NCBI GenBank assembly: GCA_018829385.1 | Contig: JAHJUC010000574.1 | Coordinates: forward strand, 1-52,011 | Direction of reading: 5' to 3' | DNA from: Alphaproteobacteria bacterium | GTDB taxonomy: Bacteria > Pseudomonadota > Alphaproteobacteria > Rhizobiales > Rhizobiaceae | Length of the DNA stretch: 52,011 bases | In this document: positions 16,254 through 41,469 of the stretch, in pieces | How the letters are laid out: each line of letters begins with the position of its first letter | Numbering within the stretch: position 1 is the stretch's first letter | The notes under the pieces: generated by a model | What the model saw: the letters and a program-made list of their open reading frames with translations, nothing else | Told to the model about the DNA's origin: nothing | The model's database searches: none | Translations under genes and position numbers: made by a program

Positions 16254-16338
16254 AATGCGCCCGGGCCGGTGCGGCACACGCGGTGCAGCCACGGCGTGAT
16301 CGTTCCGGCCCAATGGCGTTAAGCAGGTCGATCCAAAC

Positions 16339-16841: not shown

Positions 16842-16924
16842 GTAAGCGGCAAGGCAACCCCGTGGGTTATTGCCGCTTGGGATCTGGGATAGGTCTTGGT
16901 CATTGAACAGATGACCGGGGTTTC

Positions 16925-17296
16925 ATGTCTATGACTGGTTCTACGCCTATGCCTGCGACTGGTAGCTTGCAGTTGGTCGAGGCGGTGGTTGAGCGTTTTG
17001 AGGGTGCGCCGGTCGGGGAGCGGCGGCGGTGGTCGGATGATTTCAAGGAGCAGGCGGTTCGGGCGGCGCTGGAGCCTGGGGTGAATGTTTCTGCTCTGGC
17101 CCGCCGTCTGGGGATTTCGCCGGCGCAACTCTTTGGCTGGCGGCGGGCCTTCCTGAGCAAGGGGAGCGAAGCTGGCGCCGATGGAGCGCCGGAGCCGATG
17201 GTGGAAATCGTGATGGGCGACGTCACCATCCGCGTCAGCCCCGCGCTGAGCGAAACGGCACTGCGCCGTGTTCTTCGCGCGGTACGCTCGGCATGA
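16925..17296 (+). CDS. IS66 accessory protein TnpA
   Basis: RRWSDDFKEQAVRAALEPGVNVSALARRLGISPAQLFGWRR. Confidence 0.8.
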   Translation: MSMTGSTPMPATGSLQLVEAVVERFEGAPVGERRRWSDDFKEQAVRAALEPGVNVSALARRLGISPAQLFGWRRAFLSKGSEAGADGAPEPMVEIVMGDVTIRVSPALSETALRRVLRAVRSA

Positions 17297-17395
17297 TACC
17301 TTCGGGCGTGAAGGTGTTCCTGGCGAGCCAGCCGGTGGACTTTCGCAAGGGTCCGGACAGCTTGCTGTCGCTGGTGCGCGACACGGGCCGTCCCG
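17293..17395 (+). pseudogene. IS66 accessory protein TnpB, truncated
   Basis: MIPSGVKVFLASQPVDFRKGPDSLLSLV then abrupt loss of homology. Confidence 0.8.
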
Positions 17396-17399
17396 TCCG

Positions 17400-17610
17400 C
17401 CTCGAGGATGGCATCAATGACCGGCAGCAGCGCCCCCAGCTTCGGTTTGGCCACCGGCTTCACCCGTGTGTAGCCAGGCGGCAGCGAAAACCGGCACATC
17501 TTCGAGATCGTCTCGCGGCTCAGCCCGAAGACCCGAGCCGCAGCGCGCTGGCTGTTGCCCTCCACGAACACAAAGTGTCGAACGGCAGCGTAGACTTCCA
17601 CGGCAAACAT
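17400..17610 (-). pseudogene. IS21-family IstA N-terminal fragment
   Basis: MFAVEVYAAVRHFVFVEGNSQRAAARVFGLSRETISKM...LPVIDAILEAD. Confidence 0.8.
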
Positions 17611-17729
17611 TCCCGGCCGTCCCCCCCAAAAAGGAAACAGCCTTACCACTGGCCGGATTTTACTCCGGCGCGGTCGACCCCCTCGCCGCCGCTTCGTGGC
17701 CTACTTTGTCACCGCCATACACAAGGATG

Positions 17730-17803
17730 CCGGTCTTGCCAAACAGATTGCCAGGCGAGCGGCCTTCCATCAGCCGGTCCAGCAGGTCTTTGTCGATGCT
17801 CAT
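17730..17803 (-). pseudogene. IS256-family transposase N-terminal fragment
   Basis: MSIDKDLLDRLMEGRSPGNLFGKTG. Confidence 0.6.
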
Positions 17804-17861
17804 ACGTGGGTCTCCTCTGAGAGCAGTTACCACGTCAGAGCACAAAATTCAGGATAGTCCC

Positions 17862-18337
17862 TGCTCTACCAGGTCGAGAAATCCGTGCGCGGGAGGGATG
17901 CGGACGTGCGGTTGGCCGCCCGGCGCGAACACGCAGCCCCGATCATCGCCGCGCTCACGCCCTGGCTCGAGGCCCAGCTCTCGCGCATTCCGCAGAAATC
18001 CCAGCTGGCCGAGGACATCCGCTACACCCTCGCGCACTGGCCCGGCCTGATCCGCTTCCTCGACGATGGCAGCCTCGAGCTGGACACCAATCCGGTCGAA
18101 AATCAGATCAGACCGATTGCCCCGACGCGGAAAAACGCGCTCTTCGCAGGCAATGAGGTCGGCGCCGAAAACTGGGCCACGCCCGCCTCGCTGGTCGCCA
18201 CCTGCAAGATGTCCGGCGTCAACCCGGTCGACTACCTCGACGCCACCCTCCGCGCCATCCTCGACGGCCACCCGCAAAGCGGCATCGAAGACCTGAAGCC
18301 GTGGTGTTACGCGCCGCCGTCAAGCCTCATCGCATAG
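17862..18337 (+). pseudogene. IS66 transposase (TnpC) C-terminal fragment
   Basis: DGSLELDTNPVENQIRPIAPTRKNALFAGNEVGAENWA... Confidence 0.88.
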
Positions 18338-18469: not shown

Positions 18470-19657
18470 CTAAAAGAAGGCCTGCAGACCTGTCTGGGCC
18501 CGACCGATGATCAGCGCATGCACGTCGTGCGTGCCTTCATAGGTATTGACCGTCTCAAGATTCACCATGTGGCGGATCACACCGAACTCGGCCGAGATGC
18601 CGTTGCCTCCGTGCATGTCGCGGGCGTGTCGGGCGATGTCCAGCGCCTTGCCGCAGTTGTTGCGCTTGATGACCGAGATCATCTCGGGTGCCATGCGCCC
18701 CTCTTCGAACAGCCGTCCGACCCGCAAGCAGGCCTGAAGCCCGAGCGAAATCTCGGTCAGCATATCGGCCAGCTTCTTCTGATAAAGCTGCGTCTGCGCC
18801 AGCGGCCTGCCGAACTGCTTGCGATCGAGCCCGTAGCTGCGGGCGGCGTGCCAGCAGGCCTCGGCAGCTCCCATGACGCCCCATGCAATGCCATAGCGCG
18901 CACGATTCAGGCAGCCGAACGGACCGGACAGGCCCTCGACATCGGGCAGCAAGGCCTCTTCACCGACCTCGACACCTTCCATCACGATTTCACCCGTGAT
19001 CGATGTCCGCAAGCTGACCTTCTTGCCGATCTTCGGCGCAGACAGGCCCTTCATTCCCTTCTCGAGCACGAAGCCTCGAATCCTGCCACCATGGGCGTCG
19101 GACTTTGCCCAGACGACAAAGACATCCGCGATCGGGCTGTTCGAGATCCACATCTTGGTGCCTGTCAGCCTGTAGCCACCGTCGATCTTCTCGGCACGGG
19201 TCTTCATCGAACCGGGGTCGGACCCGGCATCGGGTTCGGTGAGGCCGAAACAGCCGATATACTCGCCGCGCGCGAGCTTGGGCAGGTATTTCCTGCGCTG
19301 TTCCTCGGAGCCGTAGGCGAAAATCGGATACATCACGAGGCTCGACTGCACCGACATCATCGAGCGATAGCCACTGTCAACACGCTCCACCTCACGGGCG
19401 GCGAGGCCATAGCTCACATAGCCCGCGCCGATCCCGCCATATTCTTCAGGCACCGTCACGCCAAGCAGCCCGAGTTCGCCCATCTCGCGGAAAATCTCGG
19501 GGTCGGTTTCCTCGGCAAGGAAGGCGTTCTCGACGCGCGGTTGCAGCTTTTCCTGCGCATAGGCAAAGGTGCTGTCGCGGATCATCCGCTCTTCCTCGGT
19601 CAACTGGTCGTTCATCAGGAACGGATCGTTCCAGGTGAATGCTTTCGTGTCCGTCAT
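18470..19657 (-). CDS. gcdH: Glutaryl-CoA dehydrogenase-like acyl-CoA dehydrogenase
   Basis: [70 protein letters not shown]. Confidence 0.85.
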
Positions 19658-19668
19658 GTGCCTACCTT

Positions 19669-20871
19669 TCAGACCCGTTCCAGAAGCAGCGCCGCGCCCT
19701 GCCCGACGCCGACACACATCGTGGCCAGCGCATAACGCGCGGTGCCGCGCGCCAACTCCAGCGCAGCCGTTCCGGCGATCCGCGCCCCTGACATGCCCAG
19801 CGGATGACCAAGGGAGATCGCCCCGCCATTGGGGTTGATCCGCGCGTCGTCATCGGCAAGCCCCAGCGCGCGGGTCACGGCCAGCGCCTGCGCGGCAAAG
19901 GCCTCGTTCAGCTCGATCACGCCGAGCGCGTCAAGCTCGATTCCAGCGCGGGCCAGCAGTTTGCGCACCGCGGGCACCGGCCCGTAGCCCATGACCCGCG
20001 GCGCGACCCCCGCCGATGCCGCCCCTCCGATACGCGCAAGCGGGGTCAGCCCGTGGCGCCGCGCCGCCGCCTCGGACGCCACGATCAGCGCCGCGGCCCC
20101 GTCGTTGACGCCCGAGGCATTGCCCGCCGTGATCGAGCCATCGGGCCGGGTGATCGGCTTGAGCCGCGCGAGATCTTCCAGCGAGGTTGCGCGCGGATGT
20201 TCATCGACGCTGACTTCGGCGGTCTTGCCGCGCCCGAGCGGCACGCTCAGCGAGACGATCTCGGCCGCAAGCCGCCCGTTCGCCTGCGCCGCCGCCGTCC
20301 GCCCTTGCGAGCGGAGCGCGAACGCATCCTGATCCTCGCGCGAGATGGCATGTTCGTCGGCAAGGTTCTGCGCCGTCTCGGGCATGCTGTCGGTGCCGTA
20401 GGCGGCCTTCATCTTCGGGTTGACGAAGCGCCAGCCGATGGTCGTGTCATGGATCTCGGCCGCGCGGCCCCAGGCATTGGCCGATTTCGGCATCACGAAA
20501 GGCGCCCGCGTCATGCTTTCGACGCCCGCCGCGATGGCTAGTTCGATGTCGCCGGCCTGCACCGCGCGGGCCGCCGCCGCCACGGCTTCGAGCCCCGAGC
20601 CACACAGCCGGTTGACGGTGACGCCCGGCACCGTTTCGGGCAGGCCGGCCAGCAACAGGGCCATGCGGGCGACATTGCGGTTGTCCTCGCCCGCCTGATT
20701 GGCACAACCCATCCAGACCTCTTCGACGGCAGACGGGGCAAGCCCAGGGTTGCGCGACAGCAGGGCGGCCAGCGGAATGGCGGCCAGATCATCGGTGCGC
20801 AGCGGTGCCAGCGCGCCGCCATAGCGGCCGATCGGGGTGCGGATGTAATCGCAGATGAACGCGTCGGTCAT
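19669..20871 (-). CDS. Acetyl-CoA acyltransferase (thiolase, PcaF/FadA-like)
   Basis: [52 protein letters not shown]. Confidence 0.9.
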
Positions 20872-22931
20872 TCGGTCCTCGCAAGTTCGGTCAGGCTGCG
20901 CCCTTCGGTGACGGCGCGGCGCAGGATTTCGGGGATCGGCCAGGATAACGGGTCTTCGACGGCAAGCCGTTCAAGGCGGGCCAGAAGGGCGGCCAGGCCC
21001 GCGCGTTCGGCCATATGCATCGGGCCGCCGCGCCAGCGCGGAAAGCCGTAGCCATGGATCAGCACAAGGTCGATGTCGGCGGGGCTGTCGGCGATACCCT
21101 CTTGCAGGATGGCCAGCCCCTCGGATGCCATCGCGGCCATGGCGCGCGCGACGATCTCATCGGGCCCGAAACTGCGGCGCGTGATGCCCGCGCGGCCGCT
21201 TTCGGCCTCCACAAGCGCGTTGATCCGGGCCGAAGGGGTCTGGCCGGACGACCCGTAATCATACCAGCCCGCGCCGGTCTTGCGGCCAAGCCGCCCGGTT
21301 TCCTCGACGATGCGGTCGGCGATCGGGATGTAGCGGATCGCGGGATTGTCGCGCCATCCCAGCCGTTTGCGATTGGCATAGGCGATGTCGAGGCCGGACA
21401 GATCCTGCACCTCATAGGGGCCCATTGCCATGCCAAACTCGCGCAGCGCCGCGTCCACCTGATCGGGCAGGGCGCCCTCGATCAGCATCACGTCGCAGGC
21501 CTGCCGATACCGGGTCAGGATGCGGTTGCCGATGAACCCGTCGCAAACCCCGGCCAGCACCGGCAGCTTGCCCAGCCGCGTGGCCAACTCCAGCACGCGG
21601 GCCAGCGTCTCGGGCGCGGTGGCCCGGGCGCGGATCACCTCGACCAGTTTCATCACATGGGCCGGGCTGAAGAAATGCAGCCCGACGAACCGCTGCGGCG
21701 CGCGCAGGCCCTCGTTGAGGCGGTTTGGATCGAGATAAGAGGTGTTAGTGGCGAGAATGGTGGTTTCCGGCAAGGCGGCATCGAGCGCGGCAAAGACCTG
21801 CCGCTTGACCGCCAGATCCTCGAACACCGCCTCGATGGCGATGTCCGCCGCGGGCAGGCCATCATAGCCGACAACAACCGGGATACGGGCCTCGCCCGCC
21901 GAAGCCGCGCGCGCCTTGCCGCGTTTCACAGCGTCATCGAACAGCCGGATGACATTGGCACGCGTGCGTGCGGCGGCGGCGTCATCCACTTCGACGAGCG
22001 TTACCCTGATGCCGATCGTATCGAGGGCATAGGCAATGCCCGCACCCATCGTGCCGCCGCCCACGACCACTGCCGTCGCCAAGGGTCCGGATGCAGCCCC
22101 GAGCCCCCTGCTGCGCGCATTGGCCGCGCGTTCCGCGCAAAAGACATGCTGAAGCGCCAGGTTCTGTTCCGATCCACGCAGTTCCAGGAACGCCGCCCGC
22201 TCCGCCGCGAGCCCCTCGGCCATCGAAAGCCGGGCGCTGTCGGCCACAAGGGCGATGGCACGCGCCGGGGCCACTTGTCCGCGCTGCTTTCTGGAAGCGG
22301 TCGCAACGGCGCTCGAGACCGCATCATCGTCGGCAGCAGGCGCCGGGCGCGCCGAAACGGCCGGATATTCAGACAGGGCCGACGGCGCAATCGTTCGGGC
22401 CGCGGCCACCGGGTCGGCCTCCACGGCGTCGACAAGACCGAGTTTGATCGCGGCGTCAGAGCCGATAGTCCGCCCCTGCGCAATCAGTTCCAGAGCCGGG
22501 CCGATCCCGATCAGGCGGGGAAGCCGCTGAGTGCCCCCGGCGCCCGGCACCAAGCCCAGCGAGACCGCGGGAAATGCAAACGTGGCATCCGGCGTGGCGA
22601 TACGCATGCGGCAGCCAAGCGCAAGTTCCAGCCCCTCACCCAGGGCCACGCCGTTGATCGCGGCGATGACCGGCACCGGAAAACCTTCGATCCGCGCGAT
22701 TATCTCAGGCATACTTGGAACATCGGGCGGCGCGTCGCCCTCTTTCACATCCGCGCCGGCAACGAAGGTTCCGCCCGATCCGGTCAGGATAACTCGTTGC
22801 ACCGCCGCAGCCTCGACCGCATCCAGGGCCGCTACAAGATCCTTGCGCAGCGTGATGTTCATGGTGTCGAGTGGCGGATTGTCGATCGTGATCAGTGCAA
22901 CATCGCCGGAGATCTCGGTTCTTGCGCTCAT
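20868..22931 (-). CDS. Bifunctional enoyl-CoA hydratase / 3-hydroxyacyl-CoA dehydrogenase (FadB/FadJ-like)
   Basis: N-terminal crotonase domain plus [13 protein letters not shown] and 3HCDH domains; ATGA overlap with thiolase gene. Confidence 0.9.
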
Positions 22932-23413
22932 CCGTGCGCTCCGCTCTGACTTGAGTCGAAAGGCGAATGGGCGGGCGGCCACCTTTGCGGCAATCCCGTC
23001 CAGCGTCCCGCAAACTGGCCGATCGCGAAAATTTCCGCTTCGTCGTCGAGATTCGCGCCCATAACGATGTGAAATACGCCACTTTTGCCGCGACGGGATA
23101 CCTGATTGGCGCGTGCGAAAAGTCGGCTTCCGCCGGGGGTCGCCCGCAGAAACGACAGGTTCGATTCCGTCGTTATGATGGGGCCATCGTAGTAGCCTGC
23201 CGCGCCGAAAGCCATGTCGGCCAGCGTCCAGACGGCCCCGCCGTGGGCACTGCCATGACAGTTCATCGCCCGCGGCGATACCGGCATGGACACGAGCGAA
23301 CACCCGGGCTGCAATTCATGCAGCCTGATATTGAGGGCAGCGGAAAATGTATCGTCTCGCAGGAGCGTTTCGAAACGCCGGGCAAGGATGTCGTGATTGG
23401 TGGAGTTTTCCAT
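22928..23413 (-). CDS. PaaI-family hotdog thioesterase
   Basis: NCHGSAHGGAVWTLADMAFG; overlaps FadB-like start by 4 bp. Confidence 0.82.
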   Translation of the reverse strand: MENSTNHDILARRFETLLRDDTFSAALNIRLHELQPGCSLVSMPVSPRAMNCHGSAHGGAVWTLADMAFGAAGYYDGPIITTESNLSFLRATPGGSRLFARANQVSRRGKSGVFHIVMGANLDDEAEIFAIGQFAGRWTGLPQRWPPAHSPFDSSQSGAHG

Positions 23414-23556: not shown

Positions 23557-24192
23557 TCAGAGCCATATGCGATTCCCCTGTCCTTCCCTTGACGCAGCAT
23601 CCCAGCTGCGCTGGCCCGCTTCGGTCAATATCCCGGAGAGCACATTGTCGACGTTGTGATTGATGTATTCGTCCAGTGTCAACCGGGATTTGTAAAACCA
23701 GCTTTTCAGCGCCCAGCCATGCGCAATAAGCACGAGTTGATAGGTCAGGACATCGACGTTCACGGGGCGGATCAACTTCTGGCTGATACACGCTTTCAGC
23801 GCATCCGAGATGATCGAGTTGGTTTCGATCTCTCGCTCTTGTATTAGAAGCTGTCGCTCTGACGACAATGATTTTGTGGAGCGATAGGCAAGCACCGTGG
23901 CAGAACGGTGCTGGTCCACGACCCGGCAATAGGCATCTACAGCGCGGATCAGGCGCTCGAGCGGATCGGTTATCCCTTCGATTGCTTTCGGAATTTCGAG
24001 GGCGTAGCCCTCCAGAACCTGCAAAAGCACTAGAAGAAGGACATCTTCCTTCTCGCGGACATAGAGGTAGACGAGGCCCGGACTGACGCCCGCCAGCTTG
24101 GCGATTTCCTTGATCTTGGTGCGATAGAAGCCCTGATCGGAAAACAGCTTGGTCGCCGCTGCGACGATCTGCTTGCGCCGACGATCGACCAA
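23557..24192 (-). CDS. TetR/AcrR-family transcriptional regulator
   Basis: RRKQIVAAATKLFSDQGFYRTKIKEIAKLAGVSPGLVYLYVREKEDVLLLVL. Confidence 0.9.
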   Translation of the reverse strand: MVDRRRKQIVAAATKLFSDQGFYRTKIKEIAKLAGVSPGLVYLYVREKEDVLLLVLLQVLEGYALEIPKAIEGITDPLERLIRAVDAYCRVVDQHRSATVLAYRSTKSLSSERQLLIQEREIETNSIISDALKACISQKLIRPVNVDVLTYQLVLIAHGWALKSWFYKSRLTLDEYINHNVDNVLSGILTEAGQRSWDAASREGQGNRIWL

Positions 24193-24246: not shown

Positions 24247-25092
24247 TTACTTCCCTTGACGCATTTCAAGGCTGTCATCCTGGTCGAATCCCGACCCGAG
24301 TTCGGCGGTCTCGAAAGGTGCCCCGAACGCGAGGTAACCGCCGTCAACGGGAACTACGGTACCGGTCATGAACGACGCGTGCGGCCCCGCGAGGAAAGCG
24401 ATCACGTCAGCTATTTCATCCGGACGAGCAAGGCGGCGCATCGGTGTGCGTGAAACGATACCCTCCTCGTCGAGCTTTCCGCTGCGGATCAGACCGTCGA
24501 CAAGATCCGTGCGCACGTAACCCGGCGCGACCGCGTTCACGCGAATACCCGAGGTGGCCCATTCGCAGGCCAGCACCTTGGTCATCATGTTTATCGCGCC
24601 CTTCGCCGCTGCATAGCCTATGCGGTTCGGCGTGGCGACGTGCCCGGCGACCGAGGACAGGTTGATGATGGCGCCGCCTCGAGAGGCAGAGTGCGGCGCG
24701 ATCATCGCCCTGGCCGCCGCCCGGGACATCAGGAAACAGCCCTCCACATGCACCGAAAGGGTGTGGCGGAATCGTTCGGCCGTCTGATCCAGTGCCGGCA
24801 CGGCGCCGTCGCCGATTCCGGCGTTGTTGACCAGAACGTCCAGCCGCCCGCAGCGCGCAACCACATCGGCAACCATCGCATCGGCCAGTCGCTCCGATGC
24901 GACATCGCCGGGAACCGCCGCATGATCTGGACCGAGGCGCCGGGCCGTCCGATCCGCCGCTTCCGGGTCGAGATCATTGACAGCCACAAGGTAGCCATCG
25001 GCCGCGAGCCGGGTCGCGGCGGCCAGGCCAATGCCCGCCCCCGCCCCCGTGACCAGCGCGACGCGTCGGCTATCGCTGGCGGTCGCCGTCAT
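24247..25092 (-). CDS. SDR-family oxidoreductase
   Basis: TGAGAGIGLA, NNAG, YAAAK motifs. Confidence 0.88.
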   Translation of the reverse strand: MTATASDSRRVALVTGAGAGIGLAAATRLAADGYLVAVNDLDPEAADRTARRLGPDHAAVPGDVASERLADAMVADVVARCGRLDVLVNNAGIGDGAVPALDQTAERFRHTLSVHVEGCFLMSRAAARAMIAPHSASRGGAIINLSSVAGHVATPNRIGYAAAKGAINMMTKVLACEWATSGIRVNAVAPGYVRTDLVDGLIRSGKLDEEGIVSRTPMRRLARPDEIADVIAFLAGPHASFMTGTVVPVDGGYLAFGAPFETAELGSGFDQDDSLEMRQGK

Positions 25093-25877
25093 CAGCGGAA
25101 GCGACCAAAGTCGGGCTTGCGCTTTTCGAGGAAGGCGTTGCGCCCTTCCGCAGCCTCTTCCGAGTTGACGAAGCTCGCCAGCCCGTCCGCCGCCATTTTG
25201 ACCTGCCCGAAAATATGGGCGCTATCGGCGTTGAAGGCATGCTTGAGAAACTTGATCGCCGTGGGACTTAACGCGACCGCCTGCGCGGCCATTGCGCGCG
25301 CCTCTTCCATCAGCTTGTCGGACGGCACCACCTTGTTGACGAGGCCCCATTGCAGGGCGGTCTGAGCGTCGTATTGCTGGCAGAAGAACCAGATCTCGCG
25401 CGCGCGCTTTTCGCCCACCGTGCGGGCCAGATAGGCCGAGCCCCAGCCGGCATCGAAGGAGCCTACGCGCGGGCCCGCCTGTCCGAACCTGGCGTGATCG
25501 GCCGCGATCGTGACATCGCAGATGACATGGATCACATGGCCACCACCGATCGCATAGCCGTTCACCGCACAGATCACCGGCTTGGGAATATTGCGGATGA
25601 CCATGTGCAGATCGTCGATTTCCCACAGCCCGTTTTCCGAAGTGCCGTAGGTTCCCTTTTCGGCCATTTCCTTCTGGTCGCCGCCGACGCAGAAGGCCTT
25701 GGTCCCGGCGGCGGTCAGGATCACGGCCCCTGCGCCCTTGTCCGCCCAGGCACGCTTGAAGGCATGAATCAGTTCTTCGATCGTGCGGCCGCGGAAACAG
25801 TTCAGCCGGTCGGCGCGGTTGATGGTGATCGTGGCGATGCCCTCGCTCACCTCGTAAAGGACGTCGGTGTAGTCCAT
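25092..25877 (-). CDS. Crotonase of the MenB/BadI type (candidate 2-ketocyclohexanecarboxyl-CoA-type hydrolase)
   Basis: FCVGGDQ, VGSFDAGWGSAYLARTVGEKRAREIWFFCQQYDA, EGRNAFLEKRKPDF resemble MenB and BadI. Confidence 0.8.
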   Translation of the reverse strand: MDYTDVLYEVSEGIATITINRADRLNCFRGRTIEELIHAFKRAWADKGAGAVILTAAGTKAFCVGGDQKEMAEKGTYGTSENGLWEIDDLHMVIRNIPKPVICAVNGYAIGGGHVIHVICDVTIAADHARFGQAGPRVGSFDAGWGSAYLARTVGEKRAREIWFFCQQYDAQTALQWGLVNKVVPSDKLMEEARAMAAQAVALSPTAIKFLKHAFNADSAHIFGQVKMAADGLASFVNSEEAAEGRNAFLEKRKPDFGRFR

Positions 25878-25905: not shown

Positions 25906-27588
25906 TCAACCGAGAATGACACGCGCCGGGTCGAACCCGCGCAGCAGCGCAATTTCCTCGGGTATGGGGGGGGCGTGTCGGATCAGGTCGGGGCGGTAAC
26001 GCAGCTTGCCCCCGGTGGCGGCATCAATGGCTGCGCGCGCCTCGGCCTCTGCATCGGGCGTGGCCATGATGCCCGCAACCTCGAGCCTGCCGTCCTCGCC
26101 CCGTTCCAGCCAGCCAAGATCGGTCGCAACCCCGGCCAGGGTGCGGATCGGCGACGTGGTAAAGGGTAGCCGATCAACATAGCGGCCGGGTTTCAGCGGC
26201 ATGACGATCATGACCTCGGACGCCCCTCCGGCAAGGTCGTTCGCCCCGCCCGAGCCGACGATCAGTCGGCCATCACCTGTGCGGGACGAGTTGATGAAGC
26301 CCCTGCTGTCGATCTGCCCGGCCGCGAGCAACGACAGGCAGCGCTTGGCCCGCGGCCCAGCCAGGACGCCGAGCGTCTTCAGAAACGAGGCATGAAAACG
26401 CGACGATGCCGCGTTCGGACGGTTGAACAGATAGGGATCGCCGGTCACGGGGCGAAAGCCGACCATGCCGGTCTCGGCGATCAGCGCGACGTCGAGGCCG
26501 CGTTCCCGGCAGAGGCGCTCGGCGCCCCAGGCGGCCAGATGTGACAGGCCGATGCCGGCGAAGAAGCTTTCCGCACGGCCGTCGACGGCACGGGCCTCGG
26601 CCATGCGCATTGCCAGAACCGCAGCGCGTTCTTCGGCCGAGGCGGGCGCATCGGCATCGCGCGGCGTGGCCGAGACCGGCAAGATAGCGGCTTCTCGTAG
26701 GTTTTCCAGCCGCTCTGCTCCCAGTCGGGACAGATAGGACGCATGATCACTATCGAAGACCCAGTCTTCGATCCAGCCGCGCAGCGCCTCAGGATCGCGC
26801 GACAGTTTCCGAAGGTTCTGGCGGAAATCATAGTCCTCTGCATAGGACGGGACTCCCTCCTCTTCGGTCCAGACAAACTGGCCCTGTGGATGCGCACCGA
26901 AGGGTGCCTCGACCACGGCGGCGACGAGGTGGCCTGGAATGCCCTGCCGGGGACCAAGCGCGCGCAACTGGTCCGGGCTGACCACGCGCTCGGCGGTGAC
27001 GATCACCTTGCGCGCAGCAAAGGCGGCCCAGCTTTCCTCGGCATCGGGGCCGTGGATTACGGCGTTGCCCCCGGTATCGGCAATCGGGGCATGCAGGAAC
27101 GCCACGTCCGGCACCAGTGCGGGAATGACGGCCTGTTCGTTGCCACCAAATGGGTCCCTGACGAAGGCCCGCCCCTCGGGCCGCCAGAGATCGGACCCCG
27201 CCAGACTGTTGACCGGCACGAAGGGCCAGCCCATGGCCCCGGCCATCAACCGGAGCGTCATCGTCAGGTTGGTCCAATCCGGATCGCTCTCGGGGTGGGC
27301 GGAATAGGCGTCTTGCAGCACGCGCGAGGGGGACGGTGCCGGATACGTATTGCCGGCGAACGCGCTTTCCAGCTTTGCGACCACGCCGGCAGAGACCAGA
27401 ACAGACGCATATTCCAGAAGTCCCGTCGCCACGAGTGTCAACGATCTGGTGTCGCGGAACTGGCGCGCGACCTCGTAGACCGCGGCATGGCTGCGGTTGT
27501 GAGTGAACCCGAAGCAGAGCGTGTCGCCCGCGCACACATGCGCCGAGATTGCGTCTTTCAGGGTCGTGGTCTTGTCCTGCCGTGCCAT
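25906..27588 (-). CDS. Fused two-domain class I CoA-transferase-fold protein (IpdA-IpdB-like)
   Basis: N-half resembles IpdA (PFVPVNSLAGSDLW, DVAFLHAPIADTGGNAV, VVEAPFGAHP), C-half resembles IpdB-type domain (QIDSRGFINSS, GSGGANDLA) in one 560-aa ORF. Confidence 0.7.
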   Translation of the reverse strand: MARQDKTTTLKDAISAHVCAGDTLCFGFTHNRSHAAVYEVARQFRDTRSLTLVATGLLEYASVLVSAGVVAKLESAFAGNTYPAPSPSRVLQDAYSAHPESDPDWTNLTMTLRLMAGAMGWPFVPVNSLAGSDLWRPEGRAFVRDPFGGNEQAVIPALVPDVAFLHAPIADTGGNAVIHGPDAEESWAAFAARKVIVTAERVVSPDQLRALGPRQGIPGHLVAAVVEAPFGAHPQGQFVWTEEEGVPSYAEDYDFRQNLRKLSRDPEALRGWIEDWVFDSDHASYLSRLGAERLENLREAAILPVSATPRDADAPASAEERAAVLAMRMAEARAVDGRAESFFAGIGLSHLAAWGAERLCRERGLDVALIAETGMVGFRPVTGDPYLFNRPNAASSRFHASFLKTLGVLAGPRAKRCLSLLAAGQIDSRGFINSSRTGDGRLIVGSGGANDLAGGASEVMIVMPLKPGRYVDRLPFTTSPIRTLAGVATDLGWLERGEDGRLEVAGIMATPDAEAEARAAIDAATGGKLRYRPDLIRHAPPIPEEIALLRGFDPARVILG

Positions 27589-27603: not shown

Positions 27604-28338
27604 TTAATCGACCATGGTCAGGCCGCCGGAAACCGACAACACCTGCCCGGTGACAAAGCTTGAACGATCCGAGGCGAAGAAGAGAACGCCGTCGGCGACT
27701 TCGGACGGCTTGGCCACCCGCTTCATCGGGATCGCGTTCTTCAGCGCCTCCTGCATCTTTTCGCTGTGCGACGCGAACAGCGGCGTGTCGGTCGGGCCGG
27801 GGCAGATGCAGTTCACGCGGATGTTCTTGCGGGTCATTTCGCGCGCAAGGCTTTTGGTGAAGGCGATGATGCCGCCTTTGGCGCCCGCATAGACCGTCTC
27901 GCCGAACGAACCGACGCGACCGGCATCCGACGACACGTTCACGATCCGGCCCGAGCCGCTTTCGATCAGCAGCGGCAGCAGCGCGCGTGTAAGTTGAACC
28001 GGACCCATGAAGTTGATCGCCATGATCTTGGCCCAGTACTCAGGCGTGTTGTCCATGAACGGCTGGATGATGTCCCAGCCGACGGCGTTCACGAGGATGT
28101 CGAGGCGGCCGAATTCCTGTTCGATGCGCCCCGCGAGCGATTCGCAATCCTCGCGCGAGGTCACGTCGAGCTTCATGAAATGCGCATTCGCCAGCGCCTT
28201 GGCGGCCGCCTCACCCCCGGCTTCGTTGATGTCCGTCAGGATGACCGTGCCGCCGGCCTCGACGAAAGCGGCCGCGCAGGCATTGCCGATGCCCGATGCG
28301 GCGCCCGTGACGAGGATGGTCTTGCCCTTGAAGTTCAT
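27604..28338 (-). CDS. SDR dehydrogenase, BadH-like (candidate 2-hydroxycyclohexanecarboxyl-CoA dehydrogenase)
   Basis: NAVGWDIIQPFMDNTPEYW, SSDAGRVGSFGETVYAGAKGG, GQVLSVSGGLTMVD. Confidence 0.75.
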   Translation of the reverse strand: MNFKGKTILVTGAASGIGNACAAAFVEAGGTVILTDINEAGGEAAAKALANAHFMKLDVTSREDCESLAGRIEQEFGRLDILVNAVGWDIIQPFMDNTPEYWAKIMAINFMGPVQLTRALLPLLIESGSGRIVNVSSDAGRVGSFGETVYAGAKGGIIAFTKSLAREMTRKNIRVNCICPGPTDTPLFASHSEKMQEALKNAIPMKRVAKPSEVADGVLFFASDRSSFVTGQVLSVSGGLTMVD

Positions 28339-28366: not shown

Positions 28367-29125
28367 TCAGCCCGCCTTGCGTTGAAAGAACCCGCGCACG
28401 CGGTCGCGCGCTTCCTCGGTGGGAATGAGCAGTTGCGGTGCGTCAAGTTCACGTGCAAAGCCGTCGCGCGTCGGGTTGCCACAGGCCGCGATGCAGTCCT
28501 TCGACAGCAGGAGCGCCTGCCGCGAGAGACCCGCGATCCGCCCGGTGATCGTCGCGATTTCACCGTCGAGCGCCTCTGGCGCACAGCTCCACTGGACGAT
28601 GCCCAGGCGCGCGGCCTCGGCCCCGTCCACGATCTCGCAGCCAAGGATGATGCGTACCGAAACCCCCGGTCCGCAGATCCGGGTAAGGCGCTGCGTCCCA
28701 CCCGCCCCGGGGATCATGCCGACGCGCGCCTCGGGAAGGCCCAGCTTGGCCCGGGTCGTCGCGAGGCGCAGATCGCAAGCCAGCGCCATTTCAAGCCCAC
28801 CCCCCAGCGCGGGGCCGTCGATCGCCGCGAGGGTGATGGCGGGGAAGGCCTCCAGCCGGTCAAAGATCGCGTGCAGCGACTTGACATAGGCGGTCATCGC
28901 CTCGACTCCGTCCGGGGCGTCGAAATATCCGGCGATCTGCGCGAGGTCCGCACCGGCGCAGAAGCACTTCTGGTCCGAACGGATCACGAGAACGGTAACG
29001 GCATCGGCCTCGGCCCGGTCCAGCGCCTCGCGGAAGGCCGCCACGAACGCGGCGTCGATCGCGTTCACCGGCGGTCGCGACAGCGTAAGCGTCGCAACGC
29101 CATCAACAGCGGAATAGCGGATCAT
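28367..29125 (-). CDS. Enoyl-CoA hydratase/isomerase family protein
   Basis: [42 protein letters not shown]. Confidence 0.88.
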   Translation of the reverse strand: MIRYSAVDGVATLTLSRPPVNAIDAAFVAAFREALDRAEADAVTVLVIRSDQKCFCAGADLAQIAGYFDAPDGVEAMTAYVKSLHAIFDRLEAFPAITLAAIDGPALGGGLEMALACDLRLATTRAKLGLPEARVGMIPGAGGTQRLTRICGPGVSVRIILGCEIVDGAEAARLGIVQWSCAPEALDGEIATITGRIAGLSRQALLLSKDCIAACGNPTRDGFARELDAPQLLIPTEEARDRVRGFFQRKAG

Positions 29126-29127: not shown

Positions 29128-30744
29128 CTACGTCCTTTCGTCTTGCTCCACCAGCCGCTGGCGGATGATGAATTTCTGGATTTTTCCCGACGGGTTCATC
29201 GGCAGTTCGGGCCAGATCTCCAGCCGCTCGGGAAGCTTGAACTTCGCCACGCCCTTGGCGACCAGGTAATCGGCCAGCTCGGCAAGAGTGACGCTTGCGC
29301 CGGGCCGGGTCACGACCACGGCGCACCCCGTCTCGCCCAGTCGGGGATGCGGAATTCCGACAACTGCGGCCTGGCGAATGGCCGGATGCGCGACGAGGTA
29401 ATCCTCGACTTCGCGGACCGAGATGTTCTGGCCGCCGCGTACGATGATTTCCTTGAGCCGCCCGGTGATGCGAAGCGAGCCATCCGGCAGAAGACGCGCC
29501 AGATCGCCGGAATGAACCCAGCCATCGGCATCCAGCGCGCGGGCCGTCAGTGCGGGTTCGCCCAGATAGCCGATGAACGTGTTGGGACCGCGCGACCATT
29601 CCTCGCCGACCTCACCCACGGGACAGTCGCGCCCGTCGTCGCCCACGATGCGAACCTCGATGCCGGGGAAGGGGCGCCCATCCGTCGTCCAGGCGTTTTC
29701 GACCGGATCGTCCGGGAATACCATCGTATGGGGGGGGCTTTCCGTAGCGCCATAGATCGAAAGGACTCTGAAGCCTGCATCGGTCGCGACACGGGCCAGG
29801 GCCTCGGGGATTGGCGCGCCGCCGCAAAGAAAGTAGCGAAACGCCGACAGAGCGATAGCATCCTGGCGAACCGCATCCGCGATATCGGCGAGGAACGGCG
29901 TTGCCCCCATCGTCCATGTGGCACCGTGATCCGCCATCTGGCGGGCCGCAACACCACCCTTGAAGACGTCGAGGAGCGAAAGCGTGCCGCCTGTGATCAG
30001 CGTCATGACGACACCGTGCATGAAGCCGGTCGTGTGCGAGATCGGCGATGCCATGAAGGCGACATCGTCCGGACCGGCGTCGAGCGCCGAGGCCAGGGAA
30101 CGCTCGCCGAAAAGAATCGTGTTGTGGGTATGGACAGCGCCCTTGGCGCGCGACTCGGTGCCAGAGGTGAACAACACCGCAGCGGGTGCGTCGGCATCAC
30201 CCTGAGCGTCCGGGACCGGCGATGACGCCAGCGCCGCCTTCCAGCCGATCGTGCCGGGCGCGGGGGCGTTTCCCAGCATCAGGACGGCGCGCCCCCGCAT
30301 CTGCTCTGTCGGCATTTCGGCCAGGACAGCGCGGAAGTCGGTACTGCGGAAGCAGTCTGTCAGGATCAGCGCGCGGCTGTCGCAGGTTGCGATCGCGTGG
30401 ATCAGATCGGCACGGCCATATGTCACGGGCACGGGGTTCACGACAGCGCCGAGCCGAAGCACGGCGAGAAAGACCATGACTGTCTGACACCAGTTCGGAA
30501 GGCAGACGGTCACGACGTCGCCCGGTTCGACACCCTGGACCGCGAGCGCACCCGCGAGACGCGCGGACTGCTCGGCAAGATCGCCGTAGCGCAGGGCCGC
30601 ACCCGATGCGTCCCGGACCGCGATCTTCTCCGGGTGGCGCGCCGCGGCGGCCAGGATCAGACCGGGGATCGTCTCGTCACGCCAGTCGCCGGGGGCACGA
30701 TAAAGCGCGGCACGGGTGGGATCGGGTGTGGGGAAGTCGATCAT
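29128..30744 (-). CDS. AMP-dependent acyl-CoA ligase (AliA / cyclohexanecarboxylate-CoA ligase-like)
   Basis: LFTSGTESRAKGAVHTHNT, IYGATESPPHTMV, GWVHSGDLA, GRLKEIIVRGGQNIS. Confidence 0.82.
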   Translation of the reverse strand: MIDFPTPDPTRAALYRAPGDWRDETIPGLILAAAARHPEKIAVRDASGAALRYGDLAEQSARLAGALAVQGVEPGDVVTVCLPNWCQTVMVFLAVLRLGAVVNPVPVTYGRADLIHAIATCDSRALILTDCFRSTDFRAVLAEMPTEQMRGRAVLMLGNAPAPGTIGWKAALASSPVPDAQGDADAPAAVLFTSGTESRAKGAVHTHNTILFGERSLASALDAGPDDVAFMASPISHTTGFMHGVVMTLITGGTLSLLDVFKGGVAARQMADHGATWTMGATPFLADIADAVRQDAIALSAFRYFLCGGAPIPEALARVATDAGFRVLSIYGATESPPHTMVFPDDPVENAWTTDGRPFPGIEVRIVGDDGRDCPVGEVGEEWSRGPNTFIGYLGEPALTARALDADGWVHSGDLARLLPDGSLRITGRLKEIIVRGGQNISVREVEDYLVAHPAIRQAAVVGIPHPRLGETGCAVVVTRPGASVTLAELADYLVAKGVAKFKLPERLEIWPELPMNPSGKIQKFIIRQRLVEQDERT

Positions 30745-31523
30745 CTGATGTTCCCCGATTGCGGACGTCCGGCAATATGGGCATGGATCGAACCGATCAG
30801 CCCACCGTCGACGAGCACGTTCTGCCCGGTGATGTATCCGGCCTCGTGAGAGATCATGAACTCCACCAGCCCCGCGAGGTCGCGCGCAGGATCACCGATC
30901 CGACGCATCGGAACCAGTGCCTCCCGCGCTGCCTTCTTTTCGGGGTCGGCGTAGATCGGTGCGGTCATGGCCGACAGGAACAGCCCCGGCGACACGCAGT
31001 TGGCCCGCACGCCGGACTCGGCCCATTCCAGGGCCAGCGTCCGCACCATCATGATCAGCGCCGCTTTCGAGGCGCTGTAGGCACCCGTGCCCGGATAGGG
31101 TTCGATTCCCGACATCGAGGCGACAGCCAGAAAGCTGCCCTCTGACGCGAGAAGATGGGGGTGGGCGGCGCGCGCCAAAAGCCACGCGCCGCGCACATTG
31201 ACGTCAAAGACCCGGTCCCAATCGGCCTCGGCGCTGTCCGTCAACCGGCCGGCGATCGAGATGCCGGCGTTCGATATCACAGCGTCGAGACCGCCCAGGG
31301 CATCGTGCGCTTCCGCAACGATGCGCTGCGCCGTACCCGCCTCGCCAAGATCACCGCTCAATCCAACCGCCTCGGCACCCGCGGCGCGGGAGGCCGTGAC
31401 AACGTCGTCCAGCTCGGACGAGGGCCGCGATGCGCAGAGCGCAAGCGCGTTGCCTTTATGGGCGAGCCTGTCGGCGATGGCGCGACCGATGCCACGGCTG
31501 GATCCGGTGAGGAGGATACGCAT
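30741..31523 (-). CDS. SDR-family oxidoreductase
   Basis: TGSSRGIGRA, SNAG, YSASKAA motifs; overlaps ligase gene by 4 bp. Confidence 0.87.
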   Translation of the reverse strand: MRILLTGSSRGIGRAIADRLAHKGNALALCASRPSSELDDVVTASRAAGAEAVGLSGDLGEAGTAQRIVAEAHDALGGLDAVISNAGISIAGRLTDSAEADWDRVFDVNVRGAWLLARAAHPHLLASEGSFLAVASMSGIEPYPGTGAYSASKAALIMMVRTLALEWAESGVRANCVSPGLFLSAMTAPIYADPEKKAAREALVPMRRIGDPARDLAGLVEFMISHEAGYITGQNVLVDGGLIGSIHAHIAGRPQSGNIR

Positions 31524-31539: not shown

Positions 31540-32733
31540 TTAGAGCTTACAGGCCGGGTCGGCCGCGGGCACCGCGACGTCGGGACCGTAGGACTGCACC
31601 ACCTCGATGGCAGCACCGCCGTCCTTCGCAACCGCAAGACCGAGATAGTTGGGCAAGAGCAGTTGGTGATCCTCGGCGCGCATCGTTACCTTGCCAAAGA
31701 CGGAGTCGATGGTGAGGCCCGGAAGGGCCGCCGCGATATCACTCGGCGCAACGCTGCCTGCTTGTTCGACCGCGCCGAAAATCGTTTGAATACCAGCGTA
31801 GGTCTCACCCTCGTAGTTGGAGGGCGGGGCGCCGTACTTGGCGGTCCATGCCTCGACGAAGGCCTTGTTCTCGGGTGTGTCGATGGTGGCCGTGTAGTTT
31901 ACGTTGCCCCAAATACCGACGCCGTCTGCCCCGATTGTCGCGAGCGTCTGGTCCACGACGAAGTTGTGGCCAAACATCGTGACCCGGTCGGTCAGGCCAA
32001 ACTGCTTGGCCTGCTTGGCGAAGTTGATCGCATCGGCACCCGACAGCGCGACCCAGATTCCCTCCGCGCCGCTGTCGCGCAGTTGGGTGATGTAGGGCGC
32101 GAAGTCGGTGGTGCCGAGCGGGGGGAACACTTCGACCTTGATATTCTTGCCAAGCTCTGTCGCGACCTCGTTGAATGCCTCGGCCGAGCCGCGGCCCCAG
32201 ACATAGTCTGCGCCGATGATCGACCAGTCCGCCTCGGCCTGTTCGCTCAGCCAGGGCCGCACGATGGCAATATCCATTCCGTCCGAATGGTTGGCGCGAA
32301 ACATGCGGGGATGGCAGCTGTCGCCAGTGAGCTTGGGGCTCTTGTTCACGACCGAGACATACATCGCGTCCCACCGATCAAGCTGCGACGCAAGCGCCAG
32401 GCCCACCGCGGATGAGATCGGGCCGGTGAGGACGTTGTAGCCACTGAGAGCCAGCTTTTCTGCGGCGCGGCGCCCTGCGTCGGGGTTGCCTTCGGTGTCA
32501 CCGACCTTCATTTCGACCGGATGACCCGCGATGCCGCCCTTGGCATTGGCTTCTTCGACCGCGAATTCGATCGCACGCACGACCTGATCGCCGAGGATCG
32601 TGTAGGGGCCGGTACGCGAGGTAGGCACACCGATTTTCAGTACGTCCCCCTCGGCCATGGCACCGCCTGCAAGCGTGAGTGCCAGGGCGAACGCGATTCC
32701 GCTGGTCAATATTGTTCGTCTATTCTTCAACAT
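31540..32733 (-). CDS. ABC transporter substrate-binding protein (Liv/Urea/amide type)
   Basis: Signal peptide MLKNRRTILTSGIAFALALTLAGGAMA; periplasmic binding fold; alternative duplicated start at 32766. Confidence 0.87.
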   Translation of the reverse strand: MLKNRRTILTSGIAFALALTLAGGAMAEGDVLKIGVPTSRTGPYTILGDQVVRAIEFAVEEANAKGGIAGHPVEMKVGDTEGNPDAGRRAAEKLALSGYNVLTGPISSAVGLALASQLDRWDAMYVSVVNKSPKLTGDSCHPRMFRANHSDGMDIAIVRPWLSEQAEADWSIIGADYVWGRGSAEAFNEVATELGKNIKVEVFPPLGTTDFAPYITQLRDSGAEGIWVALSGADAINFAKQAKQFGLTDRVTMFGHNFVVDQTLATIGADGVGIWGNVNYTATIDTPENKAFVEAWTAKYGAPPSNYEGETYAGIQTIFGAVEQAGSVAPSDIAAALPGLTIDSVFGKVTMRAEDHQLLLPNYLGLAVAKDGGAAIEVVQSYGPDVAVPAADPACKL

Positions 32734-32788
32734 GGTTTTCTCCTCCTTCGGTGATTTCTTCAACATGGTTTTCTCCTCCTTCGGTGAT
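32723..32788. repeat. 33-bp x2 tandem duplication containing RBS and start codon of the substrate-binding protein gene
   Basis: TTCTTCAACATGGTTTTCTCCTCCTTCGGTGAT occurs twice head-to-tail (32723-32755, 32756-32788). Confidence 0.95.
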
Positions 32789-32822
32789 TGCCCTGGCTCG
32801 CCCTCCTCTTGACGAAACAAAG

Positions 32823-33524
32823 CTATTGCATGATGCGGGCCTGCAAGGTTTCCCGGTCCACATCCTTCATCAGCCCTGTTTCCGAGACGTGTCCCTTGGA
32901 CAGGACGTAAAACCGTTCCGCGAGGTCGAGCACGAGGCGCAGGTGCTGTTCAATGAGAAGGATCGCGACGCCGGTTTCGGTGAGATCCCGCAAGAGTTTT
33001 TCCAACTCGTCAACGATCACCGGGGCGAGGCCCTCGGAGGGTTCGTCTAGGATCAACAGGTCGGGGTTGGCCATCAGTGCCCGACCGATCGCGAGCATCT
33101 GCTGCTGCCCGCCTGAGAGGGCGGTCCCTGGCGAGCGGCGGCGTTCGGCCAGCATCGGGAAGAGGCCGTAAATCCGGTCAAGCGTCCATTCCCCCGGTCG
33201 CCGAAGCGACGCGCCGAGCTTGAGATTCTCCTCGATCGAGAGATTCGGCAGGATCATCCGTCCCTGAGGCACCACCGCGATGCCGTGCGTCGCGGCCGTG
33301 TGACCGGCGAGCTTCAGCAGGGATTCGCCGCGCATGTGTACCGAACCGCCGCGCATCGCGGCGATGCCCAGAAGGGTGTTGACGATGGTTGTCTTGCCGA
33401 CGCCGTTGCGGCCGACGACCGCGACGCGCTCCCCGGATTGGACCGAAAGATCCACGCCCTGCAGAATATGAGCCGATCCGTAGAAGGCGTTGACGCCCCT
33501 GAGCTCAAGAAGGGAGGTAGTCAT
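32823..33524 (-). CDS. livF: Branched-chain-type ABC transporter ATP-binding protein
   Basis: GRNGVGKTT, LSGGQQQMLAIGRALM. Confidence 0.9.
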   Translation of the reverse strand: MTTSLLELRGVNAFYGSAHILQGVDLSVQSGERVAVVGRNGVGKTTIVNTLLGIAAMRGGSVHMRGESLLKLAGHTAATHGIAVVPQGRMILPNLSIEENLKLGASLRRPGEWTLDRIYGLFPMLAERRRSPGTALSGGQQQMLAIGRALMANPDLLILDEPSEGLAPVIVDELEKLLRDLTETGVAILLIEQHLRLVLDLAERFYVLSKGHVSETGLMKDVDRETLQARIMQ

Positions 33525-34222
33525 GCCGTGCTCCCGAAATAGGCCTCGATCACGACCGGATTGTTCCTGATATCGGCGGAGGTGCCCTGAACCAGGAAGC
33601 GGCCCGAGGCGAGCACGGTCAGCACCTTGCAGACGCGGAAGATCACATCCATGTCGTGCTCGACCAAAAGCACCGCGACGTTCCAGCGTTCGGCGATCTC
33701 TTCGAGATGGCCGGAAAGCACGGCGGATTCCTGCACGGAAAGGCCCGCAGCAGGTTCGTCGAGCAGCAGGACGCGCGGATCACCTACGAGTGCAAGCGCA
33801 AGGTCGACGAGGCGTTGCTGGCCATAACTGATCTCTTCGGCCTCGGTGTCGAGGACAGCCCCGAGGCCGAGCATTTCCACCAGTTCGCCCGTATTGCCTC
33901 CGCCCGTGCCATGGTTGGCCAACTCGATCTGGTCGCGCACCGTCAGGGCAGGAAAGATCGAGGTGCGCTGGAAGCTGCGCGAGATCCCTGCCCGGCGCAT
34001 CGCGGAAGGGCTGATCCCGGTGATCTCGCGATCCTCGAAAAATACACGGCCAAGCCCCGGCGTCCGGCCCGAGACGACATCGATGAAGGTGGACTTGCCC
34101 GCTCCATTTGGTCCGATCAACCCGTGCACCTGGCCGCTTTCTAGATTGAGGCTCACATCCTTCAACGCGACGACCCCGCCATAGGTCTTGCCGATGTTTT
34201 CGCAGCGGAAAAGAAAGCTCAT
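33521..34222 (-). CDS. livG: Branched-chain-type ABC transporter ATP-binding protein
   Basis: GPNGAGKSTFIDV, LLDEPAAGL; start MSFLFRCENIGKTYGG. Confidence 0.88.
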   Translation of the reverse strand: MSFLFRCENIGKTYGGVVALKDVSLNLESGQVHGLIGPNGAGKSTFIDVVSGRTPGLGRVFFEDREITGISPSAMRRAGISRSFQRTSIFPALTVRDQIELANHGTGGGNTGELVEMLGLGAVLDTEAEEISYGQQRLVDLALALVGDPRVLLLDEPAAGLSVQESAVLSGHLEEIAERWNVAVLLVEHDMDVIFRVCKVLTVLASGRFLVQGTSADIRNNPVVIEAYFGSTA

Positions 34223-35229
34223 TTTCCACCCCCGTTGCGCTCGCGTCCGGAGATCCGGGTACGCATGGCTTTCGCCAGACCCGTCATGCCACCGGGCCAG
34301 GCCACGGTAACGGTAATCAGGATCACGCCGAGAACCGCGAGCCAGTGCTCGGTCAGATCCGACAGCCATTCCCTCAGGAAGAAAAAGACCAGGGCGCCCG
34401 CGACCGGCCCCCAGACCGCGAGCGATCCGCCGAGAATTGCCATGATGAGCGCATTGCCGGAGAAGGACCAATGCATGATTTCGGGCGAGACGAAGCCCTG
34501 GTAGAGTGCGAAGAGCACGCCCGACACGCCCGCGATCGTCGCGGATGTCGCGAACACTGCGGCCTTGAGGATTTTCGTCCGGTAGCCAAGGAACAGCACC
34601 CGTTCTTCGTTTTCTCGCACGCCGATCGCCAGACGCCCGGTCCGGCTGGCCTCGAAGAGGTAGATCAGGATTACCAGCGCCGCGAGGATGACCGCCGCAA
34701 TGATAAACATCCCGTCCGGCGTCTGGAACGTACGGCTTGGCAGCCCAAAGAGCGATCTTGGCAGCGATACTGTCATGCCATCGGCGCCCGCGGTAATCGC
34801 GCGCAGTTTCGAGACCGCGACGAAGAAGAATTGACCGAGCGCCAGTGTCAGCATGGAAAAGGCGATGCCGTTGAGTTTCCCGACCACCAGTCCGATCACG
34901 AAAAACAGCGCGAATACTGCGACGAGCACCAGCCATATGCCGACCTCTGCCGGAATGCCGTGTTGAAATACCAGTGCCGTTCCGTAGGCGCCGAGCCCGA
35001 ATGGCGCGGCATGGCCGAAGCTGATCAGATCGGCCGTGCGGGCCAGAAAGCCGACCGACAGCGCCATGATCGATATGATCGTAGCCTGAGCAAGGAGGCT
35101 GAGCGTGATCCGCGAACCGGTCGCGGTCAGGATTACGACAGTTGCTGTCAGAATCGCGAGAACGATCAGGCCGGACGGCCGCAGGATCGGGCTTTCGCGG
35201 AAGGAATGGGCCAGGGTCTGGTTCGCCAT
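34219..35229 (-). CDS. livM: Branched-chain-type ABC transporter permease
   Basis: LivM-like TM protein (ISFGHAAPFGLGAYGTAL). Confidence 0.88.
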   Translation of the reverse strand: MANQTLAHSFRESPILRPSGLIVLAILTATVVILTATGSRITLSLLAQATIISIMALSVGFLARTADLISFGHAAPFGLGAYGTALVFQHGIPAEVGIWLVLVAVFALFFVIGLVVGKLNGIAFSMLTLALGQFFFVAVSKLRAITAGADGMTVSLPRSLFGLPSRTFQTPDGMFIIAAVILAALVILIYLFEASRTGRLAIGVRENEERVLFLGYRTKILKAAVFATSATIAGVSGVLFALYQGFVSPEIMHWSFSGNALIMAILGGSLAVWGPVAGALVFFFLREWLSDLTEHWLAVLGVILITVTVAWPGGMTGLAKAMRTRISGRERNGGGK

Positions 35230-35232
35230 CGC

Positions 35233-36081
35233 TCACACCTTGTTGCCAAGAATGCCCTGAGGGCGAACCACCAGAACCAGCGCCATCAGGAGGAATGGAA
35301 GCAGCGCGGCAATCTCGGGCAGATAGACGACACCGAAGGCCTGAATCTGACCGAGGATCATCGCCGAGATGAATGCACCGCCAAAGCTGCCCAGCCCGCC
35401 GACCACTGAGACGACGAAGGACATGACAAGAATTTCCGCACCCATCGACGGATTCAGCGACAGGAAGGGCGCGGCAACAATCCCGGCGATTCCCGCGAAG
35501 GCGGCGCCCAGACCGACGACAAGCGGCCCAAGGACGTTCGTACGAACGCCGCACATGGCCGCAACCACCGGAGAATGACTTGCAGCGCGCACCCAAAGGC
35601 CGGAACGGCTGTAGCGAAGCCAGATGACCATTCCGCCCGCCATCAGGGCACTCGCGAACACAATGAACAGCCGGTAGATCGGGAACGGCGCACCTGCGAT
35701 CTGGACCACGCCAGAAAGCAACGCGGGCGGGTCGATCGCATAGTTCCCGGTCCCCCAGACGGTCCGAACGAAATCTTCCAGAACCAGCAGGACACCAAAC
35801 GTAACCAGCACGGTCACCAGCGGATCCCGGTCAGCGAGCTTGCGAAATACGACAAGGTCAAGCGCAACGCCCACCGCGATCAAGACTGCGGCCGCTGCAA
35901 TGATTCCGGGGATAAAACCGGCGTGGATCGCGACGCTGTAGCCGATATAGGCTCCCAGCATGTAGAAGGCGCCATGCGCAAAGTTCACGACGCGTCGCAA
36001 CCCGTAAACCAGCACGAGACCCGAAGCGAGAATGAACAAAAGACTGCCATAGACCAGTCCGTTGAGCGCGTTGATGATCAT
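35233..36081 (-). CDS. livH: Branched-chain-type ABC transporter permease
   Basis: NALNGLVYGSLLFILASGLVLVYGLRRVVNFAHGAFYMLGAY. Confidence 0.9.
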   Translation of the reverse strand: MIINALNGLVYGSLLFILASGLVLVYGLRRVVNFAHGAFYMLGAYIGYSVAIHAGFIPGIIAAAAVLIAVGVALDLVVFRKLADRDPLVTVLVTFGVLLVLEDFVRTVWGTGNYAIDPPALLSGVVQIAGAPFPIYRLFIVFASALMAGGMVIWLRYSRSGLWVRAASHSPVVAAMCGVRTNVLGPLVVGLGAAFAGIAGIVAAPFLSLNPSMGAEILVMSFVVSVVGGLGSFGGAFISAMILGQIQAFGVVYLPEIAALLPFLLMALVLVVRPQGILGNKV

Positions 36082-39413: not shown

Positions 39414-39476
39414 CAGGTCGTCCTCCCTTTTTCTACGCACATTGAGCAACAAAAGTAGCGAGATTGCAATAAAAAA

Positions 39477-39491
39477 TCTCATAAAGTGAAA
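39477..39491. promoter_or_regulatory. IclR-type operator candidate D (TCTCATAAAGTGAAA)
   Basis: Aligns with sites at 47013, 48716 and 51303. Confidence 0.45.
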
Positions 39492-39506
39492 CGTTTTCCT
39501 TACCGA

Positions 39507-40805: not shown

Positions 40806-40807
40806 GT

Positions 40808-41362: not shown

Positions 41363-41469
41363 CGAGGATCCTCCCTTTTCTCGGTCCCACCCGGTGCGGC
41401 ATGGATGAGATCGTTCCATCCGGCCGTTCAGGCGGCATACGTAGTCCTCATGGCCACGGGGCCGGCCCT

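Follow-up and report, generated by a model that had tools for sequence, protein, structure and literature searches.

A fused Gct-type protein encoded beside a BadI/MenB-like crotonase in an alphaproteobacterial operon looks like a family I CoA-transferase

Judged by its sequence, the 560-aa protein encoded at 25906-27588 on the minus strand of the window (the whole analysed stretch of 52,011 nucleotides) looks like a family I CoA-transferase rather than a second ring-opening enzyme. The gene was assigned to a fused family I (Gct-type) CoA-transferase by the sequence and the fold of the B half. The proposal that the fused protein is a genuine Gct-type CoA-transferase which acts on the dicarboxylyl-CoA released by the neighbouring ring hydrolase is given about an even chance.

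The frame at exactly 25906-27588, described in the initial annotation as a single 560-aa one, was found to be open on the minus strand; read on the plus strand, the same interval is interrupted by stops (frame check). The described position of the gene was also confirmed. A BadH-like SDR (27604-28338, minus strand) lies 15 bases upstream and a BadI/MenB-like crotonase (25092-25877, minus strand) 28 bases downstream of the transferase gene. Fused frames were detected in 11 public genomes and on the Azoarcus KH32C plasmid, a twelfth locus being cut short; because of this recurrence, the fusion is no assembly artefact.

The chain is laid out as an alpha-type half (residues ~1-300), a linker, and a beta-type half (residues ~313-560). 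PF01144 (Pfam CoA_trans) was found in the N half with E=2.6e-20, over its cut-off. It was the only Pfam domain detected at E up to 0.001, and the AcetylCoA_hydro domains (Cat1 type) were absent from the protein. In the comparison of the N half with solved structures, GctA (1poi_A, E=1e-27) was followed by AibA (5mzw_A, 1e-19) and IpdA (6co6_A, 1e-12), and the ranking stayed unchanged with a profile built from ten relatives. With the same profile, the C half matched the 3-oxoacid CoA-transferase B (CtfB) chains and GctB with E values of 7e-8 and 5e-7, respectively. Both family I CoA-transferase halves are therefore held by one chain. This agrees with the earlier claim of two halves in one polypeptide, for which PF01144 and GctA speak in the N half, and the B-subunit profile (E ~1e-7) and the GctB fold in the C half.

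The AlphaFold model of the B half alone, calculated with 11 sequences, had a pLDDT of 77 and a pTM of 0.81. The best Foldseek match of this model was GctB (1poi_B, E=5e-11), followed by CtfAB, IpdB in third place, and other class I CoA-transferases. Among the CtfAB entries, the E46D variant is deposited as a hydrolase and the E46S variant as an inactive form. The full-length model with 10 relatives reached a pLDDT of 46 and was unused, therefore the fold of the N half was assigned from the sequence only. The resemblance to IpdA and IpdB specifically, as suggested initially, was not borne out: in the comparison with IpdAB and glutaconate CoA-transferase, GctB was the best match of the B half by fold and GctA that of the N half by sequence, IpdA came third after GctA and AibA, and the active site has the residues of a CoA-transferase.

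The active-site residues were compared in a joint alignment of the fused proteins, GctAB, two PcaIJ pairs and IpdAB, with residue 1 at the ATG. Glu372 aligned with the catalytic Glu of GctB and PcaJ in the ExG motif (ESG in GctB/PcaJ), which makes it a candidate catalytic glutamate. The residue is Glu in every aligned fused protein, including the actinobacterial ones, and Gly in all four aligned IpdB sequences. IpdB has been reported to carry Gly57 at this place, the Glu being the residue that forms the anhydride during CoA transfer (PMC5380842). The loop 445-451 reads GSGGAND, similarly to GSGGANG of GctB, and IpdB has GxRG instead of GxGG. The Glu of the IpdA DEG motif, which by the chain numbering is probably Glu105, was kept in four of the four aligned IpdA sequences. 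The conservation of this Glu had been raised as a question in the initial annotation; the column is occupied by Asn107, and the Asn is invariant in the ten aligned fused members. At 17 alignment columns, Gct/Pca and IpdAB each have a fixed residue and the two residues differ; the window protein shared nine of these with Gct/Pca and one with IpdAB, and seven agreed with neither. An AibAB-type decarboxylase was ruled out by the Glu which is found where AibB has Cys. An IpdAB fusion was ruled out as well, owing to Glu372 instead of Gly, Asn107 instead of Glu, a clade of its own, and GctAB as the best relative.

In the tree, all the fused proteins formed one clade (100/100), in which the seven close relatives made up a sub-clade (100/100). 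The IpdAB group was placed apart from the fused clade (100/100), and the CatIJ/PcaIJ-type 3-oxoadipate CoA-transferase fell in a clade separate from the fused family.

The crotonase downstream of the transferase gene (261 aa, ATG at 25877) is a predicted ring-opening beta-ketoacyl-CoA hydrolase. It scored 297 bits on the NCBIfam badI model (cut-off 467.6) and 314 and 332 bits on the menB models (cut-offs 342.7 and 380, respectively), thus it is formally neither BadI nor MenB. A menaquinone MenB role was rejected due to the score below the cut-off, and no men genes were noticed in the operon. In the partner tree, the crotonase belonged to a group of its own (97/98), near to BadI and MenB and apart from both; the other members were the crotonases paired with fused transferases elsewhere and a single plasmid protein from Sphingomonas. 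The BadI-like protein of Sphingomonas JE1 lies inside this partner clade; no paper was found in a literature search on this strain. The BadI-like gene adjoined the fused transferase gene in every close-family locus with enough flank, two loci ending before it, and the adjacency spans Alphaproteobacteria, Azoarcus and Geobacter. The BadI-like neighbour is 92-95% identical to the copies of Bradyrhizobium and Rhizobiales PAR1, the transferase only 67-69%. Consecutive genes at 1481-5291 of a locus from another, small genome of the order (~1.4 Mb) encode a MenB/BadI-like crotonase, a CaiB-type transferase, and an A and B pair that is Gct-like but unfused. The unfused pair carries a YESG motif, thus the same pairing is found there without the fusion.

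All the operon genes described below are encoded on the minus strand. The BadH-like SDR (244 aa), a candidate ring hydroxyacyl-CoA dehydrogenase, had TIGR03206 as its best match with 245 bits (cut-off 431). It is preceded by a BadK-like enoyl-CoA hydratase (28367-29125, 252 aa), an acyl-CoA ligase (29128-30744), for which the cyclohexanecarboxylate-CoA ligase model was second best with 399 bits (cut-off 792), and an SDR (30741-31523) that is kept across the operons. A branched-chain-type ABC transporter comprising a substrate-binding protein, two ATPases, LivM and LivH (31540-36081) was assigned by gene order, an order common to the loci of two relatives and Azoarcus KH32C. The acyl-CoA dehydrogenase at 36187-37329 occupies the AliB position; it resembles the cyclohexanecarboxyl-CoA dehydrogenase models but scores below them. 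By eye, TRAP-transporter-like genes (substrate-binding protein and permeases) were seen at 38355-41473, adjoining the catabolic cluster.

Downstream of the BadI-like gene, a second operon SDR (24247-25092), a TetR-family regulator of the cluster (23557-24192), a PaaI-like thioesterase (22928-23413, 161 aa), and a FadB-like enoyl-CoA hydratase/3-hydroxyacyl-CoA dehydrogenase (20868-22931, 687 aa) are encoded. These are followed by a PcaF-type 3-oxoadipyl-CoA thiolase, a dicarboxylyl-CoA thiolase (19669-20871), which scored above its NCBIfam cut-off, and by a glutaryl-CoA dehydrogenase (18470-19657, 395 aa), which matched 3eom with 628 bits and 1sir/1siq with 559 bits. FadB together with the PcaF-type thiolase and the glutaryl-CoA dehydrogenase indicate a lower route via a pimelyl-CoA-like dicarboxylate. 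Transposase-like ORFs, apparently remnants, were observed by eye at 16216-18337, between a plus-strand acyl-CoA gene block and the glutaryl-CoA dehydrogenase gene; judged by eye from the translations, more of them lie at 2619-3598 and 42670-43812. At 48805-50447, a lipid-transfer-type thiolase is followed by a DUF35/OB-fold-like ORF (by eye), an arrangement similar to the Ltp2-type pairs that degrade steroid side chains.

The fused family is rare. It was detected in 3 of the 398 sampled genomes of the order, the window's own included, and in one of the three the gene is partial, cut by the contig end. About 30 more of these genomes gave N-half, unfused matches only, and no fused-family match was obtained from a phylum sample of 21 genomes at a strict cut-off. 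The relatives, 57-97% identical, belong to Rhodobacteraceae, other Alphaproteobacteria, Bradyrhizobium campsiandrae, Geobacter argillaceus and a Deltaproteobacterium MAG; the identity of the copy on the Azoarcus KH32C plasmid is 60%. This orthologue is WP_015452145.1 (AZKH_RS25220), and its BadI-like neighbour is AZKH_RS25215. Diverged fused proteins (~35%) were found in Rhodococcus and Streptomyces. The BadI/MenB-like gene lies two genes away from the diverged fused gene on RHA1 pRHL3, and thiolase and OB-fold genes were also seen at this Rhodococcus locus. A literature search, carried out mostly without subscription papers, found no description of the fused family.

The host bacteria seem to break down cyclohexane-type acids. 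According to the proposed role, the protein would be a GctAB-type family I transferase with its two subunits fused into one chain. The adjoining BadI/MenB-like hydrolase would open the ring of a 2-oxo-cycloalkanecarboxyl-CoA, and the resulting mono-CoA ester of a dicarboxylic acid would be the substrate of the transferase. Glu372 would form an acyl-glutamyl anhydride and subsequently a glutamyl-CoA thioester in a ping-pong reaction, by which CoA could be shifted between the two carboxylates of the product, or between the product and another acid, e.g. succinate. In this proposal CoA is moved to the usable end, and beta-oxidation could therefore start there. We infer the transferase chemistry as well as the identities of the donor, the acceptor and the ring substrate. 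The substrates of Gct and PcaIJ are dicarboxylyl-CoA esters, the kind of product that BadI-type hydrolases make. A precedent for the switch of the CoA end following ring opening is ThnP in naphthalene degradation (PMC11659651).

Three points speak against the switch, one of them being the acid activation suggested by the diverged Rhodococcus loci (below). The glutaryl-CoA dehydrogenase implies an unsubstituted pimelyl/glutaryl-CoA route, where a switch is unneeded unless a side chain or a second ring is removed first, and the known intramolecular enzyme, ThnP, is from another subgroup (Cat1) and is itself without the glutamate. Since plain pimelyl-CoA needs no switch, acid activation and dicarboxylate salvage were kept as alternatives. 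The main rival is the former, in which the incoming alicyclic acid would receive its CoA either from succinyl-CoA or from the product of ring opening; we regard it as unlikely, with some real chance left to it. The catalytic letters fit this role equally. Cyclohexanecarboxylate is activated by a succinyl-CoA transferase in Geobacter metallireducens (PMC9795900), and no ligase was found among the neighbours examined in the Geobacter clusters. One or more separate Cat1-type transferases close to the Geobacter cluster could, however, activate the acid there, and an acyl-CoA ligase is already present in the same operon in Azoarcus and in all the alphaproteobacterial loci that are long enough. The diverged fused genes of R. 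opacus, Rhodococcus sp. ZPP and R. ruber come after P450, alcohol dehydrogenase and aldehyde dehydrogenase genes and have no adjacent BadI-like gene, thus acid activation is suggested for these copies. In the salvage reading, pimelate or glutarate freed by the PaaI-like thioesterase would be re-activated with succinyl-CoA. Gct-type enzymes use C5-C6 dicarboxylates, and both the thioesterase and the glutaryl-CoA dehydrogenase are present in the cluster. Salvage does not explain, however, why the gene is so strictly paired with the BadI-like one, and the lower-pathway genes are not always near in the relatives examined, which makes this role improbable.

The initial annotation had left the choice between a fused ring hydrolase and a true CoA-transferase; the latter was favoured by the sequence and the former disfavoured. 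The reading in which the BadI-like enzyme opens the first ring and a fused IpdAB-like enzyme then opens a further one is accordingly given a small probability. It would be consistent with the shared overall fold, the third place of IpdB in the fold search with the B half, and the pairing of a crotonase-type hydrolase with a Gct-fold gene as in EchA20-IpdAB. However, Glu372 stands against the Gly of IpdB, Asn107 against the DEG Glu of IpdA, and GxGG against GxRG, the fused clade is separate from IpdAB, and the genes downstream fit a simple route via pimelyl-CoA. That one operon encodes two ring-opening folds, a related idea, is disfavoured because of Asn107, the presence of Glu372, and the separation of the fused clade from IpdAB; the parallel in gene order to EchA20 and IpdAB stands. 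It is improbable that a fused Gct-type enzyme evolved apart from IpdAB opens a second ring with the transferase Glu kept, perhaps via a covalent glutamyl intermediate.

If the CoA switch is true, the fused protein would be a Glu-containing family I CoA-transferase dedicated to an alicyclic ring-opening product, a step not present in the standard bad-ali route. The operons would then represent a distinct branch in the breakdown of cyclohexane-type (naphthenic or bicyclic) acids in Alphaproteobacteria, Azoarcus and Geobacter. Gct-fold enzymes encoded beside crotonases should not be named IpdAB hydrolases by default; the sequences of the Gct type and of IpdAB can be told apart at the glutamate of ExG and at the DEG column.

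Among known systems, the bad-ali cyclohexanecarboxylate cluster of Salipiger (PMC9795900) shares the ligase, acyl-CoA dehydrogenase, hydratase, BadH, BadI, FadB and PcaF with the window's operon. In contrast, its regulator is of the MarR type and its BadI belongs to a different clade; no CoA-transferase is annotated in the stretch inspected. Azoarcus KH32C, named as the closest to the monoterpene mrcDEF genes (PMC4109377), has a further gene of the BadI type (52% identical) at 385000-402000 of the same plasmid, clustered with MaoC genes, and no CoA-transferase is annotated in the stretch inspected. We take this second cluster to be the mrcDEF-like one. Identity with the monoterpene MrcE cluster was rejected, as the KH32C copy is 52% identical, falls in the BadI clade and has no CoA-transferase annotated beside it.

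ThnP is similar in the proposed role, the CoA switch on a dicarboxylate once the ring has been opened, but is a member of the Cat1 subgroup with Gly238 in place of the Glu (PMC11659651). AibAB, the 3-methylglutaconyl-CoA decarboxylase (5mzw), shares the fold and was the second-best N-half match, and differs in Cys56 of AibB (PDB entry titles), the aligned position of which is Glu in the fused protein. The CatIJ/PcaIJ-type 3-oxoadipate CoA-transferases, one of which is encoded in the window's genome, have the same Glu-Ser/Thr-Gly motif and likewise use dicarboxylyl-CoA substrates, in contrast they are unfused and form a separate clade. IpdAB (6co6, 6co9, 6con) resembles the fused protein in fold and also occurs with a crotonase-type ring hydrolase; the pairing of EchA20 with IpdAB for the steroid rings is thus a parallel in gene order of a crotonase and a Gct-fold enzyme. 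However, IpdAB is unfused and belongs to another clade, its IpdA carries the DEG Glu, and it is without the catalytic Glu. GctAB (1poi) is alike in the best N-half sequence match, the best B-half fold match, the catalytic Glu and the GSGGAN loop, whereas it consists of two subunits and serves another pathway, and it falls outside the clade of the fused proteins.
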